Source: Neelides folsomi (Eukaryota; Arthropoda; Collembola; Neelipleona; Neelidae). Taken from it: a DNA stretch of 64,000 nt. The stretch's first letter is position 1. Every line of letters begins with the position of its first letter. The notes below the pieces were generated by a model. The model had not been told where the DNA came from. It saw only the letters and a program-made list of their open reading frames with translations, and searched no databases. This document shows positions 12,560 to 61,029 of this stretch, piece by piece. Location: assembly GCA_034687125.1 (NCBI GenBank), contig JAQGBZ010000003.1:372001-436000 (forward strand), in the 5' to 3' direction. The position numbers were made by a program, and so were the translations under genes.

Positions 12560-12948
12560 ATGATGGATACTTCGGTGACACCTGAAGTTGATTTGGCTCA
12601 GTCCAATCCCAATACTTCACCCACTCCAAGCATTCCTGAAGAAGTCTCCTACCACTCGGATGAGGAGGAGGAAGAAGAGGCCGAGGAACACGTGTCAATG
12701 GATGTTGAGTTCCTCAAGAGAGTCCTTCTCGGAAACGACGTTAGCCCACCAAATAAGAACAGAAGGACCCTCAGTTGTGAGCAATCTAATTCCGCTCATT
12801 TGTGGGCAAATAACCCAAGCAGAGTTTGCAGACTCAGTCCAAAGAAGCGAACTTCAGCTCCTCAATTCGGGAGGACAAACACTTTGAGGAATACTGTTAT
12901 ATTGAGAAGTAGGCGTTCATGGCCGGTTGCGCCGCCTCGAATACGAAG
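12560..12948 (+). CDS. dnc: PDE4/dunce alternative first coding exon A (SRRSWP...RIRR type)
   Basis: Proposed N-terminal exon of a cAMP-specific 3',5'-cyclic phosphodiesterase 4, the enzyme that hydrolyses cAMP to AMP. It gives 129 complete codons plus two bases of a split codon. Residues 34-43 are almost all Asp/Glu. Basic Ser/Thr sites lie at 68-72 (RRTLS), 95-99 (KKRTS) and 116-122 (RSRRSWP), and the end reads PPRIR plus a split codon AG|x, Arg if x is A or G. In human PDE4D4 and PDE4A long forms the corresponding segment has SRMSWP or TRMSWP and then RR just before F(D/E), so both motif and position agree. The donor is AAG|GTCGGT (GT at 12949-12950), a weak site but in the same phase as exons B, C and D. 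An in-frame TAG upstream fixes the ATG (MM, so 12563 is an alternative). The core exons are not in the window. A different gene with a similar tail is possible but less likely. Confidence 0.68.
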
Positions 12949-13499
12949 GTCGGTTTAATTCTGTTGACATTCGCTTCATGCACACATAAGAGCATTTTCA
13001 GCATCAACTATTTTATGACATGTCATTCATACTCACTCGTAAACATTACAATTATATATATTTTGAATAACACTCAAAAAGGAAGAAAGAGCGAGCTTTT
13101 ACACTTAAAAGCTTGATCTCAAAGGGAGCATTTGGATCGTGTAAGGTAATTTAGAAGATATTTGATGCGTTCAACATTAAAGAGATGTAGTGAAATCCTT
13201 TCCGCAAATTCATCATATTTCATATTTTATTAACTCAAAGAACACGAATCCCCCTTGGTATAAACTTCTTATCCCATTACAAAATAGATTCTAACAAACA
13301 TATCTTGTATGTATGAATGTATGTACTCGTAAGTATATAACATAGGTACTTATGTTTAATAAAAGAAAAAAAGTGAGTTATTGCTTCAGTGTATATACAT
13401 AAAGCTATCGATCGGATATTCTTCATCAGTTTATTCTTATCTCATGTGAGGTGGTACCTAGAGAATTGATGTTCTATAAATGACAACGTACATAGGTTT

Positions 13500-13655
13500 T
13501 GGATTTGATGGAAGCAGAAGAACGGTGCTATAAAATGAATCGTAGCTTAGAGCCTATCATCCCAATTGAATCCAAGCATCCAAAGACCCCCATAGATCAA
13601 ATGGGAATCGAACTCTAAAAATCAGGCCCAGTAAGAGCAATGAACTCGGCCTAAT
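13500..13655 (-). mobile_element. Candidate tRNA-derived SINE remnant
   Basis: Read on the minus strand, this GC-richer block has a box-A-like GGCCGAGTTCATTGCTC and then, about 30 bases on, GAGTTCGATTCCC, a near-consensus RNA polymerase III B box, followed by an unrelated body. The acceptor and T stems do not pair properly, so it is not a working tRNA. This is the pattern of a degenerate tRNA-derived SINE head. No A-rich tail or target duplication was found, so confidence is low. Confidence 0.3.
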
Positions 13656-16600
13656 TCTAATATATAGAATTACTGAAGTAAACCTCATTTCCTTTTCATT
13701 TTCATTCAATATTGGGGGATCTGGCGGACAAATTGCTTATTTCATCGTAAATTTCCTTCCAACTCAAATCCCCAAGATTCCGAATTTTCATTATACTCCT
13801 CAAATGACTTTCATGCGATCTTTATATTCACTTTTCTATCATACCTAATTAGCCTATTATATACCTTTGATATGTGTACCTTAGGTTTATACTAAAATTC
13901 ATCCGGGCAAAAATTCATAAGAAAAGATTTGCTATACTTGATTATATAACATATTATATATAACCACTTTTGTAATTTAAAATTTTACCTCATTTCGCAT
14001 CGGTTGTGACTTCGCAAAATTTTTTTGAGTAATGGCTATGCATGTTCATTTACATTTTCGTAAGGATATAAATATGAGGACCCATTCCCTTTATGTAATG
14101 TGCAGGTATATCTAGTAAATGACCTTTACTTTTTTAAGAGTCCTTCATTTAATTAAGAGTCAACTTCTTGCTTAGAATGAAATTAATCCTTGATGTATAA
14201 TTGCCATTTCCCAATTTGTTGCTCTCTTAATATTAGATTATACTTGACTTTAATTAACTATTTTCCTCCTGAGACTGCCACTAATTACAAACTTGTAAAG
14301 CTAATCACATTCCATAATATGGTAATACATTTACATGTATTCCGGTTCAATTAACAAAATAATTTAGTCTTTCTCTCTTATCTTTCGATTTAAAATTTAT
14401 TCTAATGTAAATTCCAATTTATCAAAAATATAAATTGATTAAATAATATTATATAAGTGCCTGTATTTAACTTTTTTTACTACTTTTCGGTATAATTAAA
14501 TAATACAGGTAAAATAGGGGCGTGTATTCTGCTATAATTTATCCAGTAAATTATAGAGTTTGAAAAGAGTATTATACCTATTTAAGAAAGTCAATTTCTA
14601 AGCCAATTTCTATGCGCCCTAGTTTGGATTAAAATCAAAGAGGCTCTTGAAGGAGAAGCTGTGATACGTATCTTTTGTCTTTTCTATTCAAGTGTTGATC
14701 TTCTAAAATGAAGTATAGGCTATAGGTTGTGCATGTAGAGGTGTTGAGATGGATCGATTCCCTTTCTCTACTTTCACCATATGATATAAACGTTTCCCCG
14801 CGTTTCGAGTCCCGCGCTCTAAAGGATGGGATTCGCAATTTTTCTATCCCTTTCCTTTTCCTTGTTCATAGCTTTCTGCTGCAAGAGGTGACGCTCCATG
14901 AGTGCTACATATAAGCTAGCATCTATTACCGAACGCGAACCTAATATGCTTTCTCACAACATGCATTTATCTTGGGTTCTTCGTTGTGATTTCATACCAT
15001 GATTTCATAACGAAAACTTTAATTCGTTACAAAATTAAATTGACGGTTGATTTTATGTTCATATTCTAACTTTAAGTATCACTTGCTAACAATAATACAT
15101 ATTTCCATTTTTCATGGTTTAAAGTTTAAACTAATAATATGGTAAATGATTGATAAAAAAGTTGAAACATTTTATCAAAATTTAAGACACTTTCACTTGA
15201 TGGAGAACCATAACTTTGTATTTTATCAAGTTTCGTTTTGAAATATTTAATGGGCAGGTTGAAAGTAGGGAGCAATGATGTTTTTTTTGATCCTGAGTTT
15301 GTGTGTTTATGAATACCTATGTATCTTATAACACTTACATACATTTAACATTAGCCGAGTAGGATGAAACATTTAAGTAGTTTTAAAATATTTCACTTAT
15401 GAAGTTATGATGAATGAAATGCTTTAGAAAGTCAAAAGTTCCAGAGTTTAGCATAAGTTCATATAATCCGATAAAAACTTTTTTTGCCTTTTGAACTGGA
15501 AGATTATAATAAAGCTTTTGGAAATTTCAAGCGATATATGTATGAAAAAATTCATGAAGTTGAATTTGGAGCACTTGATATCGCTGGAATAACTATCTGT
15601 ATGCTCGTTAAAAGATTAAAAATCGTTCCTAAAATAGAAAAATGATCCTCTTACTTTACTAGGTTTTGATGTTTTATGTAACTTTATCTCCTTATTTTTT
15701 CCTTCAAGTTTTGCATTAGTATAGTGTAGACATGTGCGACTTTCGATTGATTTTCAAAAAATTATCTTTAAACGATTTAAGTAAGTTTTAAATTTCTCTC
15801 CCTGAAATTTTCAATTTTCCAATTTGCATGAATATTATGAGTTTATAGAGTTTATTTTGACGCTGAAGCTTAATTTCCCTATGTAATTATTTTTAAACCA
15901 AACTAAATAGATTTCTTTATGTTTAAAGACCAAAAATTGTTTTTCTTTATTAAATCCAGATATAATGAATTTTTGCAAAATTCAAAACAATTTCTCATTA
16001 GGGGTGCAGATAATGGAATAGCCAGAGGCTTTTTTTCTGAAAGTCGAAAACTTGATGATTATCTTGAGATCCAAGTTGGGAAAATTGATAATAGGTTTAT
16101 CTTCTATAATATTAGTTGAGCAAATACCCAATAATATAATAAAGGATCTACCTATATTTGTTTTTATAAAGTTAAAGAAACTATGTATGTCTCATACTTC
16201 ATACACTTTTGAAGTACATAAGATAGTAGTATAATATTAATCGTATAGGATAAGGGTATAAACTATATAAAAAGAAGTGAGTTATTGACTCGCAAGATTG
16301 AAATGTCAAAGATCCTACAGTCTGGTCTTCCATCTTTTTTCAAATTTACTTTCTTTTCTCCTTTTTATTAAATATTATACCAATGGTATGCTTCTATTTT
16401 TCATATTATTAGCTAATAAATATGGTATATATTAATATGAATGTATTTATTTAAATACATAAAAACATAAAAGAGTATATAGGTAAGTGCCTTTAAATTA
16501 ATATAATTTAGCCGTTGGCGCATTCTCCGAGTTAACTGGACCAAATGATATATGGTACATTTACATTACATACTAGGTACATAGCATAAATACAAGTATG

Positions 16601-18664
16601 TATGTAGTTATGTATGTGCATACACCATGGATGATTTTTCCAATGGTTCTTGAATTAGAATTTTTATAGAATATTTAGAATACTTTCCTTTCACCTTTTA
16701 AAAGAAATTAATGACTAAATTATTTATTCTTTTGTGCCTACTAACTATTATGACTGATATAACAAGTTACGTGACTAACAAGCTGAATGTATGGAATCAA
16801 CGTTGACTTGCCTTCATTTGTACTAACTACTTATTAGATATATTCTTCATTCTGAAGTTTAATAATAATGAAACGTGAAGGGATATACTCTATGCATGTG
16901 AGGTAGGAAAGATTTGAGACCTGTAGTAGGAGCTGAAGGACGCAGGATGTGTAAGGAGTTCCACATGCTTTTGATCGTTATATGAGGTTGGCTGTGGAGC
17001 GGAGCTCCGAGAAGGTATGAGAGAATGTGAGAAATAAATACCCGGCTCCGGTAGCAGACAAGTGGTAGTAGGGTTGGTGAGGGAAGAAGGGAACCATCAT
17101 CAGAAGCAACGCTGCTCGCCCATTCCTTTACCAACTAGAAGTACCTAGAAATCGGTTCTGTTAGCCAGTGACTTCCACTACCTCACTACGGAAAATAAGT
17201 ATCCTGGTGAGATTCCTCTTCTCGACTCAATCTCCTTGTAACTTCTAATTAAAAGTGACGTGTTACGCTTTTGGAGCTTTGCTACTATAATACCTCTATT
17301 TCATCCACGGCCCTTCGTCCTCAATTTTGTGATCCCAGTTTAAATCTTTAATCTAAAACACTTTTACACAAGACTCGAGTTGACTCGTTTTATGTATTTA
17401 GAATCTCCTTTCCCCCGCGTTTCTCGACTCACAATTTGACTGTGGTCGCGCTTGTAGAAAAATCATCTGAATAATTTAAATGGCTTCAAATAACTCTCAA
17501 AAGTGGGAAGTCAGAGAGGAATTTCATTAAAGTTGTTGATGGAATCATATCGTTGAATTTCAATTAAATATCCATTTGTTTAGTCGACTTGCTGTATGAA
17601 GACAAATAATGACGAGCTCTAGTTCTGTTGATTAAAATGAAAATGAATAGAATTTTTCTTCAAAGGCGACTTTGTTCAGATTTAACTGTTGCGGTCTTTC
17701 CGAGTTGTTGGGTTCTCATTTTGTTCTGAATTCTTCCCATTGTGGAGTGAAGAAGTTGAAGAACATGAGAGAGTTGGATTGGAAATATAATGAAAAATCG
17801 TTGTTTGGAGTGTGTCCCCTCCTCTCATATACTCTTACGTGCAAAGAAGAACAATTCCTCACATTTCCCAACTTATCGTCAATCTCTCTCCTGATATAGA
17901 AATGTTATAGAGGGCGACGACGAGGACGAGTTTATATATTATACATAGGTGATAATAGCATGCGAAGAGTGACTGTGAGTTGAACAGATAGTCGGTCGGA
18001 TATATTGGCAGAAAGGACAGTAAAGTTTCCATGGGCAACATCGGGATTCTCTTCTTCTATCTTCACGACCCTTAATAGTGAGACTCTTCGGGCCATTATT
18101 GAGAATCGAAATCTGACTTGAATCTTTATTGATTTCCCAATAATACCTCATCGTCTAACTTTCCATATCATATAAAATTCCTCCCATTCAAGGGTTCGAG
18201 AGATAAAGATGGTAATGAAGGAAATCTCCTGAATATTCAGCAGGGAAGGATTTCTCCTGCTCATGGCCCACGTTCAATCCACTGTACTAATTCAATAACT
18301 TAATTCCTGAAGACTTTGATTCTGATTAGGAATTATTTTGTAATATGAGAATTGGGGCTTTTAAAGAGACACTCCAATTCCTTTGTTCACATTCTGCGGT
18401 CATTGGGCATGAGCTGACTGCGAGAGGAGCGAAGTAAATGAGATTGAAAGTGAGTTGGAAGTTGGAATTTAATTCGCCAAGGATGTTTACGAACAAACAA
18501 GAAGGGAATTGTATCTGTACATTTAAACTTTTGGTTTAATAATGAGACGCAACATGGAAGACCCGACTTTCCACCAGCACCCATATAATATATCGTAATT
18601 ACTCAACTATTAGTGAATGTGTGTGATGGTGGAATGAAGGCGCCTTTAGTTTTCTTCGAACAAG

Positions 18665-18672
18665 TGACGTCA
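18665..18672. promoter_or_regulatory. Perfect cAMP response element octamer (TGACGTCA)
   Basis: The full palindromic CREB/ATF consensus occurs in intron-like DNA between PDE4 exons A and B. About 0.5 copies are expected by chance in 64 kb at this base composition, and two are present. A role in cAMP feedback is inference only. Confidence 0.3.
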
Positions 18673-21600
18673 AAAGATGATGATTCGAAATGAGCAAGTA
18701 GCATGCGATTGATAATATAATACGCTAACTTCGTAATTCCTCACCTTCTGCGACCATTGGAAGAGCCCATCTTTACCTTTCTTATTAACATGATTAAATA
18801 GTAGAGAAGTCATTCCAGAATAAGAAAACTTCAATACAATCGGGTTGTGTTATTCCTTTCAAGTCTCCGCTACTGCGTCTAGTTACAACAACCTGCGTGA
18901 ACCATGAGGAATTATTAAGCTTTAAATGGCAATTGGTCCTCTAGAAGAAGAAAATAATACTTTCTGTGACATGTATTGACCATCCTGAAGGTTATTTAAC
19001 ATCAACAAGTAGTAAAAAGAAACTATTTAATAATTAATTTCTTGGTTTATAATGAAAATTGCCAACCTTGTAAGAAACTTTTGAGGTTACCATTCGTCAA
19101 GGCTGAAGAAACTTTTATTTTTCGAACAAGTTCAACTATGTTCAGTAATTGTGCAGCAAAGTTGGGATTTATTGAGGATTTTTAGAAAATTCAATTCAGT
19201 GTTCTTTACAAATAGACTTGTGAGGCAAAATGCAAGGGGAAAAAGGAAGTTTGGTTGATTTGCAAAAATACCACACTCGGTTCGCCAGGTCTCGCCGTCA
19301 CACATTGGCAAATGTTTTACGGTAAGATTTATGTGAAATTACTACACGTATTTTTAATTTTGAGAGAAGCATTCCTCCAATTTCTCATGAATCATTACTC
19401 CATATTACAGTCAACATTGATTTATTTCCTTGTTCATGAAGGTTAGACCCGAATCTCAAATTATTAGTTATTTGAACCGAATGCACGCTATGCCATACAT
19501 TGTCCCAATTTTTCATTCTCCTTTTTATTTTAACATACCAATATATCATACATGTTAGAAAAACTTTTCTCGTAACCAAACGTCCATCGATCATCTGCGC
19601 AATTATAGTTTTAATTAATGTTTATTATTTAAAATGACCTCAAATCGCATTTCATAAAGGTTCACTTGATTCAATTTTTATCAAGTTACAAAATGAAAAA
19701 TGACGAGCCTTTCCCAAATTACTCCATATCATGCTCATTTATAATGAATATCATTTAATTAATTTAAAGCGTATTTGCATGCTTGCATTTTTATTGGCAG
19801 TTCAGTTCATTATCTCTTGAAATAAGAAAATAGAACGAACAAAGATTTCATCTATTGTCAGTTTCTTAAATCGCATGCTTGGATTCGGGTTGAACAATAT
19901 TTAAATGCAAATGGTGAGAAAATGAATGGCTGAACTGAATCAAACTTTTGATTCATCCTTTGGGCCAACTCGGTCTTGAGAAGTGCTCTATTGATATAAG
20001 AAAAGTCTTATAAAAATACACATCGTTTGCTCTCATAGTTTGCTCTCCTTTCTTTCACTCACTCATTGAGCTAGAGCCGTGTGGACAGATTGAGGAAAAA
20101 AGTGAAGGAAACGAATGTTTTTCACGACTGCTTCCTCCTCCTTACTCAATCTTGATAGGGAGACGTATGTGGATGTAAAGTAGATTGAAGTGCGGTGAGA
20201 GCGTTGAATCTTCGACTAACATACATTTTTCTATTCTTAGTTTTCTTAGATGCTACAAGTGCCCTTTTGTTTTCTTTTTTCCTTATTCTTCTTCCTCTGT
20301 AAGCTGTCGTGTCGAGTGGGCATTTTCGTCGCCTTCCATTCCTCTGATCATTTGATTAAATTATCACAAATGTGACTTGGTCCCACACTCTCTACCTTTT
20401 TTCACACCCCGCAGCTTGCGAAAATAAATAGAAAAAGAAAGGGAACGGAGGATGCCAGAAATAGAACCTACAAATGAGATTGATCACGGTTGGATTGAAT
20501 AAAATATTTTAATAGAATTTCCCACAACCTGGAGATCGAACTTTGAAATGTACCTAACTTTGTTGTCGTTTAAAAAACAATTAAATTAAGTTTACAATAC
20601 TCCATAATGTATCCAAATAATAATGAGAGTTTGAATAGAGCTTATGCAAAGAAAAGAATCGGCTTTCTAGTTAATTGAAACATATTGAACAAGAGGTTTG
20701 TTTTGTCAAAGCAAACAATGAGGAAAAGTAAGACATCTTAGAAATTACAACATTGAATTTCAGAGAATCCTCAGAGGAATGAAAGGAAAATTTTCTTTGC
20801 TTCAACAGAACTCCTCATTTCTCCTTTTATGACCAAACAAAGAAATGTATCCTTAATTCAAAAGTACATAGAACTTTGAGATTAAAATTCCCTATTTACA
20901 AACAATTTCATACAAAGTTAAACTCCTCAAATAAAAGTTTTCAAACACAATTCTCAATTGCTATTTTTGTTCACTTGTTAATAAATGATTTTACCTTTGA
21001 GAATAAAATATTTAATAAAAAGTTTTGTGGAAAAATGTCTAAACACGACAAAGGAATCCCCACAAATTACAGACAGAATTTGGTTTTTTAAAAAAATGTT
21101 TAACTCAGGATGAAGTAAACAAATTAAAAATGGAGAGGAAAGTAGGTGGATAATCTGATTCAACTAGTTGACATTTTTGAATACAGTGCCAGGATTTTTC
21201 ATTTAATGCAATGACAATAATAATACTGTATGAAACCCCAACTTGATACAGAGATATAGTAGCAAAGAGTCATTGCCAAGAAATCAGGTGAGGTTGTTGA
21301 ATTTAAAAGAGAAAAATCAGCAGTTGGCTGCATTGGTTTTTCTAATCCTAGGCCAAATGTAAAATTACTGCGGTAGCTGTGACCGGCCCTGAATGAATTA
21401 TCCATCTATAATATTATAAGCTTTACTTTGCTATCTCAAGATTCAAATTTTGCCAAATTGGCAAAGGATTCTGATCTAATAAATTTCTCTTTCATCTTAT
21501 TTCATCATTTTCAATATTTTTGGTTAAAGTTGCTATTTCGTATAAATGTGAGCCACATAGTTGTTTAATAGCATGACAGAATGAGTTATATACTATAAAT

Positions 21601-24600
21601 TCGCTTTGCATCTTCTATAAGAGGGTGGTCAAAGGTCATAAAGTGTTTTATACCAAGTGTTTTAAATTTTTACCAATTTTATTATAAAGTAAACTTATTG
21701 TTAGTTTAGGTAGTTATAAAATCTGGTTAATATTTTGCTGAGGATCAAGGAAAACCTTTATTTAAATAGATAATTGAGCAATTGAATAATAATAATGGTT
21801 AAAAATAAACACTCGTTATCCACTAATAGACGAATTATTCATGTTATAATAATACGAGATCGAACAAAGTCGAACTTTGTGTGCTAGAATACATATTATT
21901 CTAGAATAGGTGTATGCTAATTCAGCTGATTTGTCTATTAAACTTTTCCTTAATATTTATTCTCAAATAAGATTTCCAACATTTTAAGATAAAAGTCTGA
22001 ATTATAATTAATTAGTATATATAAATACCTTCCCATTTCATTTTATGTTCAATACGCACGTTTGAGTTAATTTTAGCTTATTTGAATATTTTCCAGTCCT
22101 TACTTGTGATATCTGGTTTTACGTAAATGCAAAAGCGAAGCAATTTCTTATTGATTTTTGCACGTTTCCTTTACATGCATATTTTGGTACTTTTCTTTCG
22201 ATTTTGTCGTTCGCGAATGAAATAAGGCTAAGGTCACTATCGAAGCTTTACCAAATAACCCTTTATTCGAATTTCTCAATGAATTCCCACTCCCACAAAT
22301 ATGGCTCGTTTCATATAATACGTACTAGAGAAAGTTCAACTTTATATATGTGGAATACTAACATTGCAAACATGAAGCATAACAATAAAATGGCTATGTC
22401 CTAGCATAATGGGACAAATTGTTTATAATGTACCATATGTATAAGCAGTTCTTGTTCTAAGATCTTATTATAACAGTCATTCCGACTATAATATTGTGTA
22501 CTTGTGGTCTGGATACAAGTAAAGTAGTTTAATGGTCTGGTGAGATTGATTCGGTATAAAGTATCTGTATTGTATGGTATTGTGTACTCCTTTCATTCCA
22601 TCCTTGGGCATCTAATGGTCTCTAAAATGAGGTGAATCACGGAAATGGTCAAAAAGGATTTTCTCTTTTGGGTTTCCTTTTTCTACTCCGCTTAGCTTTA
22701 GATTTGGAACAGGAAAATGTGGAGTGGAGGGGAGGCGATGTTGAATGTTCTAAATGTCGATTGTCATAAATAATTCTCGCGAAAGAGATAATAATGACCT
22801 AATGGGTTAGAAGCGAATTTCGGGGAAAAGTATGTCGCTTTTATCGGGATTTTGACCTTACCCTTTTATGACTCTCTAAAATCCTCACAAACTTCTGTCT
22901 TAAAACGAATTACTTTGTTTATCGCAACTTTACAACGGTACACGAACATCATTTGAAGTGTTATAGACTTTATATAAAAAGTACTAAATATAAAAAAGGC
23001 TCTAAAACGCAATTTATTCATTTGTTATAAATTAATAATTTAAGCCAGTAGTAAACCTGTTAAAGATATTTAGGTAATATTCCCTAATTCAGTTCATTCA
23101 ACATTAATTCATGGTTATTCTCGTTTTCATATTTTCATTTCATCATTAAAAAGTATATTGAAATTTTGTAATGTCTGTTGTTAAATGTTAAAATGACAGA
23201 GTTGTGTAAATGTTTAGCCATTTGAAATTCAAATAAGAATTAAGAGTTGAAGCAATTGAAATATCTTCCCCTTTATGCTTAATAATAATACTTAATTGAA
23301 TAAAATGGTTGAAATTTCAAATCAAAGTTGGAACCTCAAATGAGATTCCCTCATTAAAATCTGCGGTTTGTCGCGCATCCTCATTTTACCGTGTTCGAAA
23401 TCGAGGTCGACTTTCTATGTAGTAATTAACCACTAATGATTTTCCACCAATTGTAATTAAAATAATTTTGCTCTTTTTAAAATTACCATAAATTATTTTT
23501 TCCAATTGAATGAAATTTTTTATTTTTCCTTACCCAAGATGATTAATTATTTATACTTGAAATACCTTCTTGAATTTATTAAATATCTAGAGTTTCTAGA
23601 GTCCAGAGTATTCAGGTCCAGATATTTATAACTACAAACTTTTTGAATGTATAAAACTTAAGTAGCTAAAAGATAACGTTTAATACATTAACGCATATTT
23701 CATATGGTACAGTGGCAAATAGATCATATACAGTACTACAGACATGTTATTATTTTCATAATTTAGCATTTAATATAATTAGCATTATATCAAAGTAATT
23801 TATTATTATCTTCTAAGGATGAAACGTGGGTATGATGCATATAGTGATTTACCATAAAGTTTTGAAAACTTGGAGATTTTGTGACGTGTTTGCCCAAATA
23901 TATTCATTCATGTTAAGAAAGTCTCCGGGGATCCTTTTCAATGATTTATTATCAAGAGAAAAGCCAACGCGTCGTTTTATTAATTTAAACTCAAATATTT
24001 ACAGGGATTCATAAGAGTAATCAGTGGTAAAGTGGTTAGTTGGATTAATCAGAATTACTTAAAAATGATATTTAGAATTTATTGGCGTTTTACCGCTTTA
24101 TGATTAGCTTCAATTTACATCAATTCTAATCGAGGCAACATTAATTTGAAATATGTTGAAATTATAAATATTACATCATTTAATGGATTAATCTAAATTC
24201 CACATATTTTACAATCCTACATATTATACTTATGCGTGTAGAAGTATTCGTGTACAATGTACATTCTGTAAAAGTATTTACTTTATAAGGAGTTTAAAGA
24301 AATTTGTATTTGTACGGATGTAATTTACAATGAGATAAAATGTATTTTCGAGTGGTTTTACGAAAGAAAAAGATTAATGCTGAAAGAGTGACAAATGAAT
24401 TTATGGCGATGCTGACTTAAATATAAATTCAACTATTGTTTCAAATACTAGAGTAGAAAGTAAAGTAGCCCAATAAGAATATTTGATTAGGGATGTGAGA
24501 GTTGTTTTTTAAGAGAGAACGAGAAAGAGCTTTCATTGTTATCATGTCCTTGCTATGTTGAAATAATTGAAGAAGAAAGGTTCCATTACATTACACAATG

Positions 24601-35988: not shown

Positions 35989-36105
35989 ATGAAGAGCAAA
36001 GGACCTCCGAGTCCTTCGCCTTCTCACAATTATGTCACACGAGAAGAGAGCGATCCCCGAGCTGCGAGTTGTAAACGAGTCGAACGACGACGAGGACGAG
36101 GATAG
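35989..36105 (+). CDS. Overlapping uORF (38 codons) upstream of PDE4 exon B start
   Basis: An ATG at 35989 opens a frame reading MKSKGPPSPSPSHNY and on to a TAG ending at 36105. It starts 43 bases before the main ATG at 36032 and runs through it out of frame. If transcription begins upstream of 35989, ribosomes starting here would bypass the main start, so this would lower translation of N-terminus B. Two tiny uORFs (two and five codons) lie further upstream. Whether they are in the mRNA depends on the unmapped start site. Confidence 0.35.
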   Translation: MKSKGPPSPSPSHNYVTREESDPRAASCKRVERRRGRG

Positions 36106-36252
36106 GGACAACGATGACACTGACACGGAACAAGAGTCTGGAGCTACAGATGCCCCAAGTGGGTCGTCAAGTGGGAAATCCCGACCTTTCAAGGCTCCAC
36201 TCCTCTCTGTCCCGGCTGGGACAACGAGAAGGAGACACTCTTGGGTCTATGG
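36032..36252 (+). CDS. dnc: PDE4/dunce alternative first coding exon B (RRHSW type)
   Basis: Proposed N-terminal exon of PDE4, with 73 complete codons plus GG of a split Gly codon. Residues 15-35 form a very acidic segment (many Asp/Glu), residues 42-50 are Ser/Gly-rich, and the end reads RRRHSWVYG. In human PDE4D3 the unique N-terminus is short and ends RRHSWIC directly before the shared FDVDNG. The Ser in RRHSW is its known PKA site (Ser13), so motif and exon-end position both match; here it is Ser70. The donor TGG|GTATGT (GT at 36253-36254) is good and leaves two bases, as in exons A, C and D. In-frame TGA and TAA codons upstream show 36032 is the first usable ATG in frame. The acidic extension before RRHSW is longer than the vertebrate form. 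UCR1 and catalytic exons must lie downstream of the window. Confidence 0.78.
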
Positions 36253-42933: not shown

Positions 42934-43314
42934 ATGATTTTGAGCCTCTGTATTAAAACCTCTTTGCCTTTTTTCTCCAATGCTCCTACTCCGACGTTCC
43001 ATACACACCATACACATGATATTATGTATGCACATGTACACATAGAAAAAGAGTGTAAGTTAAGAGGAAGTAAGAAAGAATTTGCATTGAGAATCGATAA
43101 GTTGGGGCGGACGGTAAGAAAAGCTAAACGCTTAGCCTTAATGAAGTTATTATCATCTAATAAGGTAAATTCGCTAATAGAGTTATGGATGGATGGTAAA
43201 ATTGTCTGTTTATTTATACCGGCCTCTCCCTTTACATTTCATTCAAATGAGAAGGCCTGTGCTGGAACACGTTTAACTAATATAATAGGGGCAACTTCCT
43301 CGTTCATTTATTGA
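42934..43314 (+). CDS. Hypothetical 126-codon ORF, weak
   Basis: A true ATG at 42934 opens 126 codons ending at TGA 43312-43314. The middle part (about residues 42-90) is lysine/arginine-rich and looks helical: KEFALRIDKLGRTVRKAKRL. The first third is His/Thr/Pro-rich. No family is recognised, there is no signal peptide, and codon use follows the AT background. It converges tail to tail with the minus-strand small ORF ending at 43308, overlapping it by seven bases. Length alone is only mildly unlikely by chance in 64 kb, so I keep it as a weak candidate. Confidence 0.15.
   Translation: MILSLCIKTSLPFFSNAPTPTFHTHHTHDIMYAHVHIEKECKLRGSKKEFALRIDKLGRTVRKAKRLALMKLLSSNKVNSLIELWMDGKIVCLFIPASPFTFHSNEKACAGTRLTNIIGATSSFIY
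43307..43312 (-). terminator. AATAAA polyadenylation-type signal at the stop of the nested minus-strand ORF
   Basis: The hexamer reads AATAAA on the minus strand and overlaps the TAA stop codon. The hexamer is common in AT-rich DNA, so on its own it is weak support. Confidence 0.25.
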
Positions 43315-43484
43315 GTTCGTTCTTCAGGATGAGTTGGAGCTAGGCGGAGGTTGTTGAGATCCTTTAGGTAATTTTCCATCGAGGAAAATTCACCCATCTG
43401 CTTTGCATTTAATAGCCACTTCTCGAAGTCTTTCTCTGCGTTATGGAAATTGAGTTGGGGCGGCGGCTGGCGGGTTGAAGGCAT
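43308..43484 (-). CDS. Hypothetical small protein (58 aa), possible nested gene
   Basis: On the minus strand ATG at 43484 gives 58 codons to a TAA. The peptide starts MPSTRQPPPQLNF, followed by a charged, probably helical part (NAEKDFEKWLLNAKQMGEF and MENYLKDLNNLRL) and a hydrophilic tail, APTHPEERTQ. Composition is balanced, with Trp, Met, Pro and Glu, quite unlike chance translations of this DNA, and G+C is locally raised. A polyadenylation-type AATAAA overlaps the stop codon. The frame stays open about 12 codons upstream of the ATG, so it could be the last exon of a spliced gene or a retrocopy instead of a complete gene. I do not recognise the family. It lies inside the presumed PDE4 intron on the opposite strand, an arrangement known for fly dunce, whose large intron contains other genes. 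Confidence 0.35.
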   Translation of the reverse strand: MPSTRQPPPQLNFHNAEKDFEKWLLNAKQMGEFSSMENYLKDLNNLRLAPTHPEERTQ

Positions 43485-44103
43485 ATTTTTCAAGAGCCTC
43501 CTCTTCTCTCTACCTACTTATCCCCTCTTTTATGAGATATCATTATTATTATTCCTCGTGTTGGAGGAGAGTTAGAGGAGGAGAGTAATTTAACGACCTC
43601 GTAAAAATTCTCTTACATATCCCTCAAAAAGCGACCGTATTGAGACGAACTCTCGACGGATCCCATTCAAACCTTGTATAACTAATCCCTTCACTCCCTC
43701 TTATTTACATGTTTGTATCAAAACATGTAAGGAGAGCATGTAGATTATTAAATGTATGTATGAGTGGTGTAGCAGAATTTTTCCTTACAAGATTTTCAGG
43801 TCGGAATTCTTAAAGGAAATTGCCAAGTTAAGCGATATTTAAAAAGGCATTGTGCTCAGGATATTAAAAACAGTCCACTTGACCTTATAATGAAAATCCT
43901 AATGGATAAATTCAATAAATGTTGAATTATTCCATTACGTTGGAAAATAAAATTTAACAATTCAATAGATGAGTGCAGAAATGTGTTAGAGGGTTTGTTT
44001 AGTCAACATTTTGCTTCAAAAGTCAATACATCTAGAGCTTAATACATTCATGAACGTGCTCTTTCATCCTTTCGACCTATGAATGTTTGACTTTAAATTC
44101 TAG

Positions 44104-51100: not shown

Positions 51101-54100
51101 TCATGTTAAATATTAGCTTCAATTTTAACCTTCGAAATTTTCATTCATTTTCAATGGCTGTTGTGAGCTGTAAGTCGGTTATTGTTATAATTCGACCTGT
51201 CAAAAGCAGTTACATGACTCCCTCCAACAAAGTTTTAATTCCATTAGCTACTTTTTTCATAAATTACAATGTCTACATAATAACTGCACCACACTCATTT
51301 ATCAATATGTGGCTTCATTCTTATCTCATTCTTACATGCGACAATGAACTCGTAAGGACTGGATTTGTGAACAACGCTCGACATAACTACATTGCTTATA
51401 ATGGGCTTTACTGATAAAAATTCTCAAGTCTTTGTATTAAAAGTGAAGAGACTCACTCAGAAGTTAGAAACAAATGTAACAGACAGAATGGAGAGTTAAA
51501 CATTATTACATTTCATTCGGACATTTTTTCGAGAGAACATGACCCACTTTCTCCTAGCAATCCCTCAGAGTCCAAACGACTTTTGCCATTTGAGCTGAAA
51601 ATGGAGAGGTGGAAAATTGAGCTTTTATTTTAATTGCTATTTCACTCTCGTGGGGCTATCGAAAAGTGGCATGGACATAAGTTTTTAAAATAAGAGGAGA
51701 ATTAGTGAAAGCAGAGAAAATCTTATTTTCATTTGGATGGACGAAAGGGAGAGAACAGATGCTTTCTAAGAGATAATAATGTTACTTTCCGGGCATTTGT
51801 GGAGCCAGCGAGGGACCATATGATTCGCATTCTTTCTCTCTGCTGCTGCTCTTGTAAGCAAACATACCCATCCTTATATACTAACTCGCAGATTTTTCAT
51901 ATCTGGTTCAAACGGGTACTTTCGATTCAAGGAAGAAAATGGTGCATAAGGAGAATGTCCTTATATTTAAATGTTAGTTTTCTTTCAAAAAGGTTGTGGA
52001 ACATCCTTTATGTAATATGAACAATACGTGTAATACGTACTTTATGGTAGATACTTGTACTACTTACAATACATACAGATATTTATATTATGTATGGTAT
52101 TCTAAATGTATTAGTATAATAGGTATGTACAGATATGTTCATTGTACTTTTGCGTCTGTATAGTATGTATTGATTCAATTCATTCATTCCAAATTATTTC
52201 ACATGTTTCTTTCATGAGTTCCTTTAAAGTATGGAATTAAAAGGAGTATCAGAGATATAATATGTATTCTGTTCTGTTTGATAAAATAATATTGTATAGA
52301 GAGTTACATTTAGAGTCAATTTCTTGTATTCCTATGTATGGGTCAAAATGAGTAAAGAAATTGAGAATGGAACAGGAGGAGAATTAAAGGAAGAGACCTA
52401 TTTTACTTCAACTTGAGACTTTTTCTCTCATTCTCCGGTTTCTTCTTGAGAGACATTGAATCACATACACGAACGTGGGATTGTGAACCTAAGTATTAGT
52501 ATATATCTTTGCCCCCTGAGATGTTTAAATGGCTAATGGCGTCTAAATCCGTGGATTGAAGTTCTTGTGGAACCTGTTCCGTTCCCGAGGTTCTTTCTTA
52601 TTTGAAATTACATTCGAGAAGACACTCGCGTCTATCCATAATCCGCTTCTGTCTCCTCTCAATCCTCTGCATGGACACTTGAATTAAAACTTTCTGCCTT
52701 TCCCTCTCATCCTTTCTGCCTTTTCGATAAAGGTCCATTTTCAGTTGAATTTAATTAAAGTTACCTTTATTGGATAAGCTATTCTTGTTGACTATGAATG
52801 TTATAATGATCATTATATGGACTAGGAAATCATTACAATTATATTACATATTACAACTATACTAATAGATGCTAACTATACATTGGAATGAAAAAAAACT
52901 ATTGAACTATGTATTTGTAATCCGACTACTAATAGTCAAAATAGTAATGATGTCCAATCTTCAGTCACTAATGTGATTAGCAAAGAGTTTACTCAAACCA
53001 TTCATCTGTTCACTTAATTTTTAATTTTCTTTGATAGCTAATGACTTACCAAATACAGAAGGAGGTTGGGATTTACAATATTAGTAAATGTAGAAAGGTG
53101 AAGGAGAGAGTTCATTAGTAAAGTGGAAATAGTGAATGATTGTAAACATCGGAGAGAGATGGGATTTAATCAGCCTTCTAAAATTCCTCTTGCCCTAACG
53201 CGTCGTTCCATCTTCCGAATGAAGCAGAGTTGAAACGTTAACGTTCATTTATAATGTCTCATCCGCATCCGTGTATTCCTTGTTGATTAAGCCATGGAAT
53301 AATCGTGTAGTGTAGGAAAAGTTTAATGAGATCAAATCTCAACTCACTCACATACGTCATGTTTGAAGGAAATTTCTGAATTTGCATTTAAAGTTCATCC
53401 ACATACGAGTGTATTTCTACATTGTTCATGTGTTTATCAGAGTTGTTTCCATCTACCTAAATAGTTGAATCGAACAAGATTCGAGATTTGTTCTACATTC
53501 GGCTACTTGAATAATACTACTCAAATTGTTCATTCATGATTAAAGTTTCGATTTTTGATTTGGTTATAAATGATTTGGTCAAGATTTTTTTTGCCCAACT
53601 TTCGGCTTTTCAATTGAGGCGATGTGCAAGGAAGGTCGTAAATTTGACATGGACAAGTTAAATGTGAAATTTGTAACAAGGTTGAGAACGGGTTCAAGAG
53701 GAGTGGTTGGAAAAGGACATGATGTGTTGAACAAGTAATTGGCTTCCTTAATTCCTCATCTATTGGGAGAGTTACCGGAGGATATATGCTACTAAATACA
53801 TATTGCTAGACTTTTTCACAATGCGCAAAAAACATATGGGAGAGAGAATGTAGATTCATAAAGGTTTCTATATGTTCGATTCTTTTTCCCTTCTCAAGCA
53901 CTTTTGAGTATTTGGAAAATGTCCAATAAAGAAGAGGAGTCGAATTTCTATTCTCGATTCATCATACTTCACTTGCCTCTCAAACTCACATTGAAGATCT
54001 TTATGCTCACTACTTGAGGATCAAACTACGAACTTCAACATTATTTGAATTATTGGGCGGAGAAGCAAAGTTCATCTGAGATGATGAAGGGAGGAGACGT

Positions 54101-55848
54101 GGAATGGCAGGGCACAAGTGTGGGCTAAGGTCATAAATAAAATCTCTTTCCTGCCCTCCCAAATCCCAAAATAAAGAGAGAATCTAATTTGAAAGTACAA
54201 TGAAGGCACAGATGTTTGGAAATCCATTTCCTATAATAATACACATAATTCTCTGTTCCAATTCAATACTTTACCTATCATTACTTTAGATGCTTCTATT
54301 GAATCGATTTTTATTAAATCCAAATGTTCATTTGTTATTGAAAAATGGATGAGAAATGGAAGCAAGGCATTTTGATTTGCTTACTCAGAGTCCATAGGGA
54401 AGGATTTTTTGATTTATCTAGAAAAACTTGGTTTAGATCAGAAGAGTTAGTTTGATTATTACCAAACTTGATAAATAATTTATGATTTTTACTATTGAGG
54501 AAACTTAATTGATAATTTGGCAAAAATGCCAAAAGTTTTTCTTGAATTGTACCATATCTAGGAGTAAGGAGTAAGTATAAATGGAAGCTCAGTTTCACGT
54601 AGGTGTTTAGACAAGGTTGATGCGTTTACGGAGGTGGATCTCTTTCTCAGAATATTCCCAGTTGACATCTTCAATGATTAAAATGATAAAAAATGAAGGA
54701 GAGATCTCCATATATAATTTTGGCTCATGCTGAGCCCCCGTTGAAATTAGGAAAAGGTTGGTTCGCGTAAGTACACGGTGGAGGGTTTTTGAAATGTCGT
54801 AATTGTATCCACCTGTAGGCAAAATATGAGAGAATCTCAATTTCATACTTCTACCTACAATGCGTATAATAGAAGGGCTTTATAGTTCTAAACATCCTTC
54901 CTATTTGTTTTATCATTCACTTTGGCCGTTTCAAACTTTGTCTATCAGATGTTGGCCCTCGAGAGGGTAACTCATAATTTAAAACGAGCTTTCTCTATAT
55001 TCCACACATGGTACATCTTCCAGGTCTATTAAGAATGTAGATGCGGCATGGCAAGTGTATTAGTTATATGCAAATAGTTTGGAGGCATAGATCAGAGTTT
55101 TGGCGAGATTAAAGTTTGCACATTCATACCGCTTATAAATTCACTAGTGACTATTATATTATCTATATGCCCAGTTTGACTTGCGTTTGACTTGCATAGT
55201 AGATGAGGATTTGAGAGAGGATTTTAAAGTCGTCCAAGTTTAACTTGCATCGAATTACCATTTGGTGCGAGGACTATATTGAAATAGGCATCATCATCTT
55301 CACCATTCCAACATTACCTCCAAACTTTTCGTCTCTTCACCATATGGGAGAATTGGATGAGGTGGAATGGGTTCCACAACACACAAGGCAGTCAGTGTAG
55401 GTTATAAGGGGTAATGAGGATGAGGGAGACAAGAGAGGAGCAATGGATTAGAATACATGTAGTTTTCGATGGCCCGCCGGTGATATAGGTCCTCTTTTTT
55501 TAAACTCCACACTATTCCGCTCCACCACTTTGATTCTCTATTCACATTGTTCTTCTGTTATTCACCAGTCAAATAAGATCCTCTCCAAAATCCCAATAAT
55601 CCTCTATTTTTAAGTCGAAAGAACACTACCAAATTCAAAAATAAGTAATTAACATTTAAATATTATTATTAAGACCTTTACCACTCTGAATTTATTGTAA
55701 TACATACTGTAAAAGTGATTCAAAAGAGATAGAAGCATATCTTTGAGAAAAGATGTTTTTTTATTTACTTTGAGTATTAGTTAAATGCGATAAAACATCG
55801 TGCCTTAATTTTTATATGCTTGTTGGGTAAGTGAGTGAGGGTTAAGAA
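48113..55848. other. Intron-like stretch, no gene seen
   Basis: AT-rich DNA with short frames lacking coding character (for example 51103-51414, 51733-52020 and minus 54335-54846). A GC-richer patch near 55380-55560, with GATGGCCCGCCGG, lies about 300-450 bases upstream of PDE4 exon C and might hold its promoter. No TATA box is assigned. Confidence 0.5.
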
Positions 55849-56504
55849 ATGGAAATAGAAGAAGTGAACACGACGTCGACGAAGGACGACGAAGGGATTA
55901 AAGATTCCAATGAGTCAGAAGGGATCGTTTCCTTTTGTCCTGACTCTGAACCAATGACTCCAAGTGGAGACTTGTCAGGTGCTATCCTCCCCACAGTGAC
56001 CACGACAGCTGAGTTCCATGAGGGAGGATGTGGATTAGCCGGGGTTAAGAGTCTCTCCGTCACCCACACGACTCATTCAGCCACCCGTACGAAAAGAACA
56101 ACGAGGAAGGTCGCAACGAGAACAGTAAAGATTTTAAGAGGAGTTGGAGGAGAAAACAAATCAGAGACTGTCATTGAGAATGAGGAAGAAGCGGGGAGTG
56201 TGGCAATTACAAGTGTTGGAACAAGAAACCAGGCAAATACATCACTAGCTTGTTCCTCTCCAACATTAACTTTTGACCTTTGTCCCGATTTGAACGTGGA
56301 AATGGAGGCGAAAGAAACGAGGGAAAAGAGGGAAACTCAATTAGTGATAGTTGGAGACGAGAGCGGACGAGTACGAGTCCAACAAACTGAGAGTAAGAAG
56401 CAACAAGTGAGCCATCAGCATCTTTTGGCGGCCGCCGGAGGTCATTCTCCACAACTTATGCTTTCCAAGAAAACCCGCCAGTTGCGATCACATAAATTAT
56501 TCAG
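55849..56504 (+). CDS. dnc: PDE4/dunce alternative first coding exon C (218-residue N-terminus)
   Basis: From ATG 55849 the frame gives 218 complete codons plus AG of a split Arg/Ser codon, then the donor CAG|GTTTTA (GT at 56505-56506), five bases before the frame closes. TAA GAA directly precedes the ATG, fixing the start. The protein is hydrophilic and probably disordered. It has an acidic Ser/Thr-rich head (residues 1-43), a Thr/Arg/Lys block at 80-95 (RTKRTTRKVATRTVK), an acidic patch at 110-116, a charged part at 151-163, and a basic end (LSKKTRQLRSHKLF plus the split codon). The assignment rests on strand, position between exons B and D, the shared two-base donor phase, and a basic end like that of long PDE4 N-termini. 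There is no motif match to a known isoform, so this is inference and an unrelated nested gene is possible. Long open coding of 219 codons is very unlikely by chance here. Confidence 0.62.
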
Positions 56505-59500
56505 GTTTTAAAATTTATCATTTTAAATGCGTAATAGACCTTACTCGCATTAGTATTAGCTCATTTTCATTAAAAGTAACTGCAAATTGTGACGCAGTGG
56601 GTTGTGGAAAATGGAATGGAAAAGAGAGTAACAAAAAACAGTCTAATATAAGAGGTTTAAATGGGGTTGTTGTTTTAATAACATTCTCAACTCGACGGAA
56701 CATCTCTTGAATGTTAGTTTAAAGTTTCATCGTCTGCGCTTACATTTTTCAATCTATATCCTTCGATTTATTTCACCTACTGATATTATCAGCATAAAGA
56801 AAGATTTACAACTTACAACACTCGTCGTAATATAAAAAAGTTTGATGGTCCAATGCGAAAAGACATTTTATACTCACACGTTTTCTTGGCGAAATCCGAT
56901 TTCGCGTATTAGAGGAAAATTCCAACTAAAGTAGACCTTTAAATTCAACGCACTTACCAATATAATTCACTTTTATTCATACGCTTTAAACTTTAATTTC
57001 AATGCAAATGGAGAGGAATGAAAAAGAGAAATTTAAACCCTCAATTTCATGAAAGGAAAAAAACCCTTTTTTGTTCGGTGTTTATGGAAAGATGAGACTA
57101 TTATAAGGATTATGGATCATATAAAACCTTTTTTACTGTCGCACGTAACCGGTAATGGAATTGTTATATAAACCGTTTATTCTTCCATGATTCCATTTAA
57201 GAACTCGGGCCTCCGAGCAAGAGAGATTGTAAAATGTTCCATAAGGGATGATAGAGTGCGCTTACCTCTTCGGCCTCAACGTTACATCTCATAGCACACA
57301 CACGACCTTTTCATATTTGGAAATTGGAAACGCTTCGATCCGATTTTTAAATTTCTTTTTGGAATAGGGATTTTGGGAAATTCACATTAGCCAAGTTTTA
57401 GCATAAATTCGAGGTAAAAGAAATGGTCCGAATTTATTGGAATTTTTCTGAAAAAGTGGGATATCAGCATTCTATATTACAAGCCATGTAATGTAATAGG
57501 AAAATCCATCCTTCCGTTCATTTCACTCCATTTGTCTCTTCGTGTCTCACCGGATATCTTCAGGAATGGTAGCGAGGCAAATGAAGATTTTCGCATTATT
57601 TGTCGTAAGAATTCAGCGAGGTATATAAAGGTTGACTAGGGAGTATGGCGAAAGAAGATTTTTATCTTTTTATTAATGGCATTCCTCAAGCCCGCTTCGC
57701 CTCCTGCCCCGTGACAGTTCCACATTAAAATCGGCTCCTTCCCTTTGCAGACCTCGTATCGTGAGTTTCGGAACTTTGAAATTAATGTGGTTTAGATATG
57801 AACATCCGTTCATTATTAATCACTTAATCCGCTAACTTATTCTCTTTAATTCAATTTTTCCTCGGCCTACATAATTCGGCTAACTAATAGCCCTAATTTT
57901 AAAACTTGAACCTAATTAAATTCATATTGATAGAATATCTCCTTCATAAACATGTGTGCCTCACTACTTTATTAATGAACTATTCTTGTTCCAAAATCTT
58001 GATCTATGTTCTGCCCAGTGTGTTAAAAAAATCTAAACTATTCCTTCAATTAAAGTTATATTTAGCTAAGTGGAAAATTAAGTAAATGAGTCAAAATTAA
58101 TATAAATTATATTATTTATAACTTGCATGTTATATTCGTCATGTTATATGGAATGTTACAAGTTTACAAGTAATTGAAAAGTTTGGAAAATATCATTGAA
58201 ATTGAATATAATATCTCAATTACTTGTGGAGTGGAGAAAAATTTACATGTAAATACTTATGTTTATGGGTTTAAAAATTCTTCCGCCCGTTTATTCCAAC
58301 AGGTAAAGTATGAATGAGCAACAAGGTTGTTTAAATAATTTTAAATTATTCTGCCAGCTAATTATCATAGGGTGAGTGTAATGTGCTCCAAGTCTTCATA
58401 GTTCTCATTATTCTCCATCTTCACGCAAGCCTATAAATTACCATTACAAATGAGTATCTCAAGGCTCTGTGAATTAATTTCTTTTAATTAGCTTCGAATA
58501 TAATGAATTGACTAAACGGTTCAATTCATCATCACAACTCTTTTCCCATCTCTTTAAGTTTACCACGTCTCAATCTTTTAATACAAAATAACGTCATATT
58601 TGTATAATCTTTAAGTTTATGAGTATGAATTTCGCTATTTGCAATGACGTTAAAATTGATTAGTTTAGCATCTTCATTAAACACCTCTCTCGTGCTAATA
58701 GAATAAGTATGGTATATTAGCAAAATTAATAAGACTAACCCAAACCATAATGGTATTACATGTTTAATTACATCATCGCCCACCGATCGAAACCATAAAA
58801 AACGTGGTGCAGATGTTATTTCTGCATTCTTCTGGATAAGGAAGTAATGATTAAACCCCAAGCATCCATATGTATTTTATAAATTACGTTGTAAAAACAG
58901 ACTTCATAAAATTCGCACATGTTAATGGCGATTTGAGATCCCTAGTTGAATATTGATACATTTGTGTTAAAGAAAAAGTCCAGAGAAATTGAATCATACA
59001 TAAATCCAAGATAAGTCAGTTCGGTTCGGTTATTCTGCATTTAAATAACCCAAGACGCTGTTAGTTCGTAGTTGAATAAATAACATTTATGTAATATTCC
59101 TAATTTCTACGACGTTGTTAAAAATTCTTTTGTAACTGCTTCAGTCTCCTGCAACTATCTAAAGAGTTCGCCAGTCGTCAGAGAGAAAATAGTTTTGAAG
59201 TGCGGTTGCATCAACTCCACTTGACTCACATTGTGTATTTTAAACATCTTTGAATTGAACCGGAGGTTTTAACGACTTCCATTCTCGTTTGTGCTAAGAT
59301 TAGACCCTCAACAAGAGAAGCTGAGAACACAGACGAAAGTGACGAAAATGTGAGGGGAATGTTTGTATGGACTTGAATCCTTTTGTGTGAATTTCCTCCT
59401 TGTGTAGTTATCGATGTAGTAGATATAGGGTTAGTAGGACTAGGACCAAGAGGAATGACGATGAGTTGATGAGAGAAAAGACAAAAAGAATTTTTCCTTT

Positions 59501-60357
59501 ACCAATGCTATCAGATTCAAAAGCGGTGTTCTTTGTTCGAGAGAACAACACTTCCTCTGTGTGACAATGGTTGAAGTCGAGAGCAATTAAGTGTTCCAAA
59601 ACAAAATCATCAAATCCCTCAAGATAGAACTGTTTACAACAAACTGTATAAAACATTTGAGTATTGACTCTTTTATTCACTGGAATTTAGTGAGATAAGA
59701 AATTATAAATATTGAGTAATTTTCAGGATTACTTTTTATTAGACCGTTGACAAAAACTGAAGATAAGATTCGATTTCTTATACAATTTAATCATTTACCC
59801 TCATGCAAACATTACCTTCAAAGTTATATTAATTACGTATAAAAGAACAGTGTAAACAAAATGAAAACTGTTGCGAAAATTATTTTGGAGTAAATTAAAG
59901 TTTGCTAATTTTAATTTCCTGCATCTTCAAACAAGATATTTCAAGAGCCTTCTGTAGTGGAAGTTTCCTCCATTTTACATCCAATATATTATGTATATTT
60001 TGTTGTTCAAAGTGGTTGTTTGGGAAGATATACTATTTGCTCTAAATAGAACTTCTCATCTTTCACGTTCAACATAGTTGCATAACTAATTAATTATCTT
60101 CCGTTTATCCATCCCTCGAGGAAAATTAACTTTTCGAGGTTTAATAACTATTTAATTCAAATTTATCATATGTACGAAGTGAATGAGGGTCCTTTTAACT
60201 TAAATATGTCCAAAGTGAGTTTGAGAGAAAATATACTTAAGAATTCAAGAAACTTTAAACAATTCATGCAATTTGTATAATAAAGAAGAATTGTGGATTC
60301 TTAGCACTTAACAATAAGAATATCCACATTGTTCTTATCCCAATTTAAGCCTTCTTC
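56505..60357. other. Intron-like stretch between exons C and D, no gene seen
   Basis: AT-rich with a GC-richer patch near 57640-57770. Frames such as minus 58532-58861 and minus 59408-59680 are hydrophobic, AT-driven translations without domains. No repeats or elements were recognised. Confidence 0.5.
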
Positions 60358-60393
60358 TTAAATACAAAAACAATATTAAGTACAGTCTCATTC
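60358..60393 (+). promoter_or_regulatory. TATA-like and initiator-like pair upstream of PDE4 exon D
   Basis: TTAAATAC at 60358-60365 sits about 31 bases before the A of TCATTC (60388-60393), the usual TATA-to-start distance and a near-match to the arthropod initiator. Both motifs are common in AT-rich DNA, so the spacing is the only real support. Use of this site would give a 5' leader of about 137 bases containing a uORF. Confidence 0.22.
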
Positions 60394-60429
60394 ATTAGAG
60401 TTTTGTGTCTTTGGAGAAAGTTCTCGTAA

Positions 60430-60513
60430 ATGTATGGGATTAAATCTCCTTGTCGACTCCAGCATGTCCATAAGTCCATAAGGACATCCCAAGTTGTTTT
60501 GTGTGTTGTGTAA
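60430..60513 (+). CDS. uORF of 27 residues in the leader of PDE4 exon D
   Basis: ATG at 60430 reads MYGIKSPCRLQHVHK and on to a TAA ending at 60513, 13 bases before the main ATG at 60527. If included in the mRNA it would require reinitiation or leaky scanning to reach the main start. Peptide content is probably unimportant. Confidence 0.3.
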   Translation: MYGIKSPCRLQHVHKSIRTSQVVLCVV

Positions 60514-60526
60514 GACCAAATAGGAA

Positions 60527-61029
60527 ATGGGCGAAGTTGAGAGAACGTTGCAATATCTTGAAGTGCAGAACGATCCGTCCGAGGATTTTGGTAAGGGGAA
60601 GCGAGAGACTCTGCGGCTCAGCATCGAATCAATTAGCGAGGAGCCTGAATCGAATGACTCCATAATTCCCGACACAGTGTCACCAACAAGGGCGGAGACA
60701 CGGAGTCGAAGCGAGGAGCGTAAACAACAGCATTTCTCCAAGATACAACGGCCGTCTCCTCTTAAAATCCCCCTCAACCTCTCGAGCCCTGATTTCCCAA
60801 GGGCGATCGGCGGCGGGTCGTCGAGTGGTGGCGTCTACCAACACTTTTTCTCTGGCCCGAAGGGGTTAACAATCCTCAGCCCTCACACACCAATTGAGAA
60901 TAATATGAGTCCTTTTGTCATGCAGCCCTCGCACTCGTACAGGAAGAGGAAGAACAACGTCTTTTCCTCTTATGGACGGGTGGCCAAATTTCACCCATTT
61001 TCTCTGTCGAATTCTTTCTACCTCGACGA
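60527..61029 (+). CDS. dnc: PDE4/dunce alternative first coding exon D (167-residue N-terminus)
   Basis: ATG 60527, directly preceded by TAG GAA, opens 167 codons plus GA of a split Glu/Asp codon. The donor is CGA|GTAAAC (GT at 61030-61031), whose own TAA would end the frame. In order it has an acidic head (MGEVERTLQYLEVQND), a basic KGKRETLRLS patch (23-32), a Ser/Glu-rich part (33-49), an Arg-rich stretch (55-66), RPSPLKIPLNL (75-85), a Gly/Ser run (95-102), SPHTP (118-122), RKRKNN (139-144) and a Phe/Ser-rich end, SNSFYLD. The RP(S)PLKIPL part faintly recalls the RPTSLPL segment of vertebrate PDE4D7/PDE4B1 N-termini, which is suggestive only. The phase equals that of exons A, B and C, supporting a shared acceptor downstream. 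It is the exon nearest the missing core exons. An unrelated gene sharing the phase by chance cannot be excluded. Confidence 0.62.

Follow-up and report, generated by a model that had tools for sequence, protein, structure and literature searches.

Probable alternative first coding exons of a large PDE4 (dunce) gene in the springtail Neelides folsomi

The main difference between PDE4 isoforms is in the N-terminus, a part believed to set the location of the enzyme in the cell. Four open frames on the + strand of a 64,000-nucleotide stretch of DNA from the springtail Neelides folsomi (C3:372001-436000, where C3 is contig JAQGBZ010000003.1; the whole stretch is called the window) raise the question of whether such N-termini are encoded here by a series of alternative first exons of one dunce (PDE4) gene. 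A sequence-only reading had regarded the window as the isoform-specific 5′ half of a large dunce gene, and this view is supported by a PDE4 core downstream, by a common exon, and by the phase of the acceptor of that exon. We consider it quite probable that the window holds the 5′ half of a dunce gene with alternative first exons, each spliced to the common exon at C3:447850. Positions in the window are given as bare numbers and those elsewhere on the contig (678,073 bases) with the prefix C3, and the genome searched comprises 75.1 Mb in 840 contigs.

The UCR1, UCR2, and HD-type catalytic exons that had been expected downstream are present on the + strand, through C3:483681. The outcome that had been named as fatal to the proposal, a + strand with no PDE4 core downstream, was checked and does not apply: core exons lie there on the same strand as the frames. 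The UCR family PF18100 matches three exons (C3:458884-458973, 460993-461115, and 470688-470834, all +), and these are its sole matches genome-wide, even at E values up to 10. The catalytic family PF00233 matches exons within C3:481579-483438 (+), with further exons read by eye, and the catalytic HD motifs HNSLHAADVAQS and IHDVDHPG are on the same strand as the frames. When 13 core pieces with splice sites were strung together, they gave 668 residues, a sequence that is approximate at its junctions, where a few residues are missing or intron-derived. Among the best 60 of its 151 PDB matches, the first is human PDE4B with UCR1 and UCR2 (4wzi, E 3.1e-238), followed by PDE4D, and far weaker matches are to PDE1B (4.4e-72) and PDE8A (1.3e-63), then PDE7A, PDE3B, and PDE9A. 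PDE-like matches also occur on nine other contigs. No PDE4 (dunce) gene was found in the genome besides the one on C3, which spans approximately 99 kb between the ATG at 12560 and the stop codon at C3:483679-483681 (+).

The feature that ties the window to this core is the common exon, which begins at C3:447850 (+), 11.85 kb past the window end. An acceptor beyond position 64000 had been predicted to open an exon encoding F-D-V-D-N-G or similar; the exon found there opens with F-D-V-E-N-G, in the predicted phase. Its acceptor and start read TTTCCACAG/C TTT GAC GTT GAG AAT (here and below, a slash marks the splice junction). One base stands before the F codon, and thus the preceding exon must contribute two bases. 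As read from the letters, a phase-0 join would give Leu and then a stop immediately. Near the start of UCR1, the common exon has a motif, RRESF, that resembles a PKA site, and because it lies in this exon, it would be shared by all isoforms that the array gives rise to.

The four frames themselves are as originally described. Their ATGs are at 12560, 36032, 55849, and 60527; an in-frame stop precedes every one of them (the open frames begin at 12542, 35993, 55846, and 60524), and the GTs at 12949, 36253, 56505, and 61030 leave 129, 73, 218, and 167 complete codons, each with two bases over. Exon A (12560-12948, +) has the donor AAG/GTCGGT and, once joined, ends ...SRRSWPVAPPRIR(S)/FDVENG. Exon C (36032-36252, +; donor TGG/GTATGT, 88 bases ahead of the stop of its frame) ends ...TTRRRHSWVY(G)/FDVENG. 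Exon D (55849-56504, +; donor CAG/GTTTTA) ends ...RQLRSHKLF(S)/FDVENG, and exon E (60527-61029, +; donor CGA/GTAAAC) ends ...SNSFYLD(D)/FDVENG. The array may hold more members than these four. A fifth and uncertain candidate, absent from the sequence-only reading, is exon B (19230-19321, +; 30 codons plus two bases; donor ACG/GTAAGA), whose end, RSRRHTLANVL(R)/FDVENG, reads RSRRHTLANVLR/FDVENG when joined; it is put forward because of its donor, its phase, and this end. A further candidate, likewise less secure than the four, is a frame at C3:445339-445736 (+), 2 kb ahead of the common exon, that ends ...SRRTSQSRRRKRIKSHS/FDVENG. All six joins (A, B, C, D, E, and the frame near C3:445 kb) run into FDVENG free of stops. 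A Pfam scan of the A, C, D, and E frames gave no family above the cut-off. In PDB searches, exon C alone had seven matches (best E 0.29) over an acidic stretch, and its end plus the common exon had one match, which starts within the common exon.

Codon usage points to coding function for A, C, and D. G+C makes up 47-51% of the bases in the four open frames, versus 26-38% in 2-kb steps of the window. A codon-preference score was trained on 23 of the 41 search loci (18 of 30 kinase, 5 of 8 PDE, and 0 of 3 UCR loci), with loci that had several stops or a doubtful start excluded. Up to their named donors, A, C, D, and E score 10.0, 26.5, 36.0, and 25.8 bits. As a control, the best segment in each proposed frame was compared with the best in the other five frames. 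The proposed frame wins clearly for A (20.0 versus 12.1 bits), C (28.8 versus 19.3), and D (40.3 versus 17.3), and the common exon, which is known to be real, gives 19.0 versus 16.0. An open-segment scan of 154 kb on both strands yielded 185 segments of at least 10 bits. Among the best 45 of the 185, the top five + strand loci of C3:372001-447849 are D (40.3), C (36.3), the frame near C3:445 kb (34.8), E (27.8), and A (24.0).

How much weight the shared splice phase can bear is a separate matter. The agreement of the four donors had been valued at a chance of about 1 in 27, a figure that fails since it presumes donors picked blind to phase. Moreover, among 15 loosely filtered pairs of + strand open reading frames and donors, phases 2, 0, and 1 occur five times each, with no excess of phase 2. 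What stands is that all four named GTs fit the common acceptor; what does not is their distinction within the frames, because off-phase GTs score better in three of them. The phase argument thus holds because of the acceptor found downstream, and not on its own. Donors were scored with a donor matrix of a generic metazoan type. On this scale, core donors fixed by homology range from -0.8 to +8.5 (10 of 12 scored), and the named donors 12949 (+3.1) and 36253 (+2.3) fall inside that range, with 12949 being the top GT of the exon A frame. The donor of exon B, 19322, scores +5.2, and that of the frame near C3:445 kb, C3:445737, is weak at -4.4.

Several observations weigh against a simple array in which every frame splices directly to the common exon. 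Donor 61030 (-1.6) lies slightly, and donor 56505 (-4.5) well, below all 10 scored core donors. Better off-phase GTs are present in C (36159, phase 1, +3.6), in D (56407, phase 0, +4.7), and in E (60591, phase 1, +4.0; 60980, phase 0, +2.1), and when the best end by coding plus donor score is chosen with no phase constraint, C falls in phase 2, D and E in phase 0, and A in phase 1. The score of exon A peaks early, at 17.9 bits to 12776, and drops over the last third to 10.0 bits at 12948; that of exon E peaks at 60985. In the six-frame control, E ties with the opposite strand (27.1 versus 27.4), and the proposed frame loses for B (6.7 versus 7.2) and near C3:445 kb (22.2 versus 31.3), where another + strand frame on the same bases scores higher. 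First-coding-exon status rests on an ATG and an upstream stop, and exons that are untranslated or intermediate are possible. Finally, a promoter scan of seven starts gave 2 matches to TCAGTY (1.2 expected), 8 to TCAKTY (9.8 expected), and 0 to TATAWAWR (4.4 expected), with no excess of any.

One alternative is that direct joining to the common exon is confined to A, C, and perhaps D and B, and that E, or D and E together, belong to other transcripts or reach it via further small exons from the better phase-0 donors 56407 and 60980. We see this alternative as unlikely, yet as the strongest of those considered. It draws on the weak donors 56505 and 61030 and the better GTs in other phases, and for E on the equal score of the opposite strand, the peak near 60985, and the lack of any presumed human isoform end at p<0.05 in the comparison described below. 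N-termini made from two exons also have a precedent in PDE4A8, according to the portion of PMC2929239 that deals with it. Against it, the D and E frames stay open up to their phase-2 GTs, and the coding bias of D persists beyond 56407 (29.5 bits to 56406 and 36.0 bits to 56504). Among the best 45 of 185 segments, no other + strand segment nearby stands out, though small exons would not show there. It is also relevant that the lowest core donor, at C3:478941 (CAG/GTTACA, -0.8), is of the same CAG/GTT type as 56505 and serves within this gene. Because of the donor scores and the off-phase GTs, we regard A and C as well supported first exons, D as a likely one, and E as a possible one, with provisional 3′ ends for D and E; 56505 and 61030 would be the donors used if D and E join the common exon directly.

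A second alternative, that the frames are chance openings or shadows of opposite-strand genes, seems very improbable. Phase agreement alone is weak evidence against chance, as discussed above, and opposite E lies an open frame of 148 codons (60391-60834, -), with minus-strand frames there scoring 22.0 and 27.4 bits versus 27.1 for E; either could be the shadow of the other. However, A, C, and D are clearly the best of six frames, and the predicted core and acceptor are present downstream. Moreover, when opposite-strand ATGs were paired with donors, the best candidate totaled 10.2 bits (6.7 of them coding, with 7.0 being the top coding score among the 20 listed), as compared with totals of 13.1 to 31.5 for A, C, D, and E at their named donors. 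Exon B, with a coding score of 4.0 bits and a total of 9.2, is not set apart from these opposite-strand candidates. A single long transcript that includes the frames as successive coding exons would fit their position on one strand in one gene, but, judged by the starts and named ends of the frames, is similarly hard to credit, given that every frame has an ATG and a nearby upstream in-frame stop and that the named ends match the phase of the common acceptor.

Under the alternative-first-exon reading that we prefer, first coding exons (the four named and perhaps two more) would follow each other over approximately 61 kb, from 12560 to C3:445736, each with its own ATG and perhaps its own promoter. 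Each would splice to the common exon at C3:447850 and skip all later first exons. The products would be long-form cyclic AMP phosphodiesterases with an identical regulatory and catalytic body and differing N-termini, and by analogy with mammalian PDE4, these N-termini might anchor the enzyme at different sites in the cell. C and B each carry another RRxS/T site (RRHS and RRHT, respectively) immediately ahead of the splice junction, which suggests that these two isoforms could receive a second PKA input.

It is reasonable to ask whether individual exons resemble particular human isoforms. The human PDE4 N-terminal letters used for this purpose are presumed ones, and the results below are to be read in that light. 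An anchored test compared the last 15 residues before FDV, ungapped and shifted by no more than one residue, for six exons and seven human ends (42 comparisons). Against these presumed ends, A paired with PDE4D4 (p=0.0012), C with PDE4D3 (p=0.0014), and B with PDE4D5 (p=0.0024), where approximately 0.1 such pairs would be expected. D paired with PDE4D9 at p=0.014, and no other comparison was below 0.05; E and the exon near C3:445 kb thus matched none of the seven presumed ends at that level. The likeness appears as SRRSWP in A against what we take to be SRMSWP in PDE4D4, both eight residues from FDV, as RRHSW in C against a presumed RRHSWIC in PDE4D3, and as RRHTLAN in B against a presumed RRFTVAH in PDE4D5.

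A cruder, local test of seven exons against eight presumed ends (56 comparisons, 400 shuffles) gave nine pairs below 0.05: A with D4 and A4, C with D3 (0.002) and B1, D with D4, the exon near C3:445 kb with D8 and D9, and the frame at 2360, which is described below, with D4 and D5. Exon B fell below 0.05 with none of the eight presumed ends. The local test therefore backs the anchored one for A and C and fails to do so for B; several of the other low-p pairs are discounted. The literature offered little to set beside these comparisons: RRHSW, RRFTVAH, and RMSWP were not found in PMC7460819 or PMC5290487, nor RRHSW in the accessible portion of PMC13095499. Among open-licence papers, nothing was found that links PDE4D3 with RRHSW, and the matches checked for PDE4D3 Ser13 concerned other residues, such as Ser133. 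Tentatively, and judging from sequence, exons A, B, and C might be orthologous to the mammalian PDE4D4, PDE4D5, and PDE4D3 exons, respectively, although we hold this to be somewhat improbable. The likeness of the ends is a lead, and no proof of orthology.

Vertebrates are known to have alternative PDE4 first exons, and the fly a very large dunce gene; the gene described here joins that kind. The mammalian long-form genes PDE4A-D are built alike, with 5′ exons for differing N-termini followed by common exons for UCR1 with a PKA site, UCR2, and the catalytic domain, as passages of PMC2929239, PMC12565116, and PMC7460819 describe. Each mammalian long-form 5′ exon has its own promoter, and the partners that the N-terminus binds are held to determine where the enzyme sits, according to sections of PMC2929239 and PMC13095499. 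PKA phosphorylation at UCR1 of the long forms is said to inhibit the enzyme in a passage of PMC12565116, whereas one in PMC2929239 has it activating. There are also differences. Mammals have four such genes whereas N. folsomi has one, with UCR matches at a single place, and exons A, D, and E are long here (129-218 codons). In contrast to mammals, no exon for a short form is established in N. folsomi. A candidate is the open frame with MEEEMSSRESSSTATQVGPDDVDVARQNELEIVLRF at C3:470274-470435 (+), upstream of the UCR2 exon that starts FKRMLNKE at C3:470742, which could possibly serve such a form as its first exon.

The resemblance to Drosophila dunce concerns gene extent and nested genes. Fly dunce is likewise a single very large PDE4 gene, mapped to 3070.4-3237.8 kb of the X chromosome (approximately 167 kb) in the gene map of a PMC4379497 figure legend, and has genes nested in an intron, as stated in a passage of PMC10835880. 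In N. folsomi, a minus-strand open frame at C3:449423-449815 (L012:3423-3815) lies inside a PDE4 intron and encodes a chitin-binding CBM_14 Peritrophin-A domain (29.3 bits; cut-off 22.1). This frame is a candidate nested gene like those in fly dunce. No paper on dunce in copepods or crustaceans was found in the open-licence literature.

If the pairings with mammalian ends are true, the presence of D3-, D4-, and D5-like exons in an arthropod would mean that the array and its anchoring N-termini predate the split between arthropods and vertebrates. This would conflict with the mainly vertebrate or mammalian origin favored in PMC2929239, where a survey of 162 expressed sequence tags from 15 species, with Ciona as the sole invertebrate, placed the long-form N-termini largely with tetrapods and their expansion in mammals; in the same source, PDE4D9 is the exception among PDE4D long forms, the rest being conserved mostly within mammals. 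The same anchoring motif could then be tested in fly and mouse. Specialists may already know of such exon matches.

Two further + strand frames lie near the start of the window, and both are left uncertain. The first is a protein-like ATG frame at 2360-2585 (open to 2599) that ends MKKRRSTTLND before a GTAAGA site. As a first exon using that site it was rejected, because the site is in phase 1 and a join from there to the common acceptor would be out of frame. A phase-2 GT lies at 2479 (+2.7), there is no Pfam match, and its six-frame result is 15.8 versus 18.9 bits; it possibly belongs to another gene or contributes to an N-terminus made from two exons. The second, at 3873-4054, has a phase-2 donor (AAG/GTCACG, +0.3), a coding score of 11.2 bits, and no Pfam match. 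It fits the phase and also joins FDVENG with no stop, yet scores below its opposite strand (12.8 versus 18.7).

Elsewhere in the window, a protein-like minus-strand frame at 43314-43517 (MPSTRQPPPQLNFHNAEKDFEKWLLNAKQM...) has no Pfam match over the cut-off, and two short arrays at 9160-9204 and 9656-9708, approximately 450 bases apart, share a closely similar G+C-rich unit of 17-18 bases (CCCGGCGCTTAATTGAG and CCGGCGCTTATTTGAGCC). Downstream of the PDE4 gene lies an Hsp70-like gene (C3:490920-492200, -), identified by eye from its translation. Genome-wide, two marks of arthropods are present: the cuticle family Chitin_bind_4 has 39 matches, and a five-fold TTAGG repeat is matched exactly 22 times in forward and 6 times in reverse orientation, with some overlap between matches, as against 0 for the reversed control.

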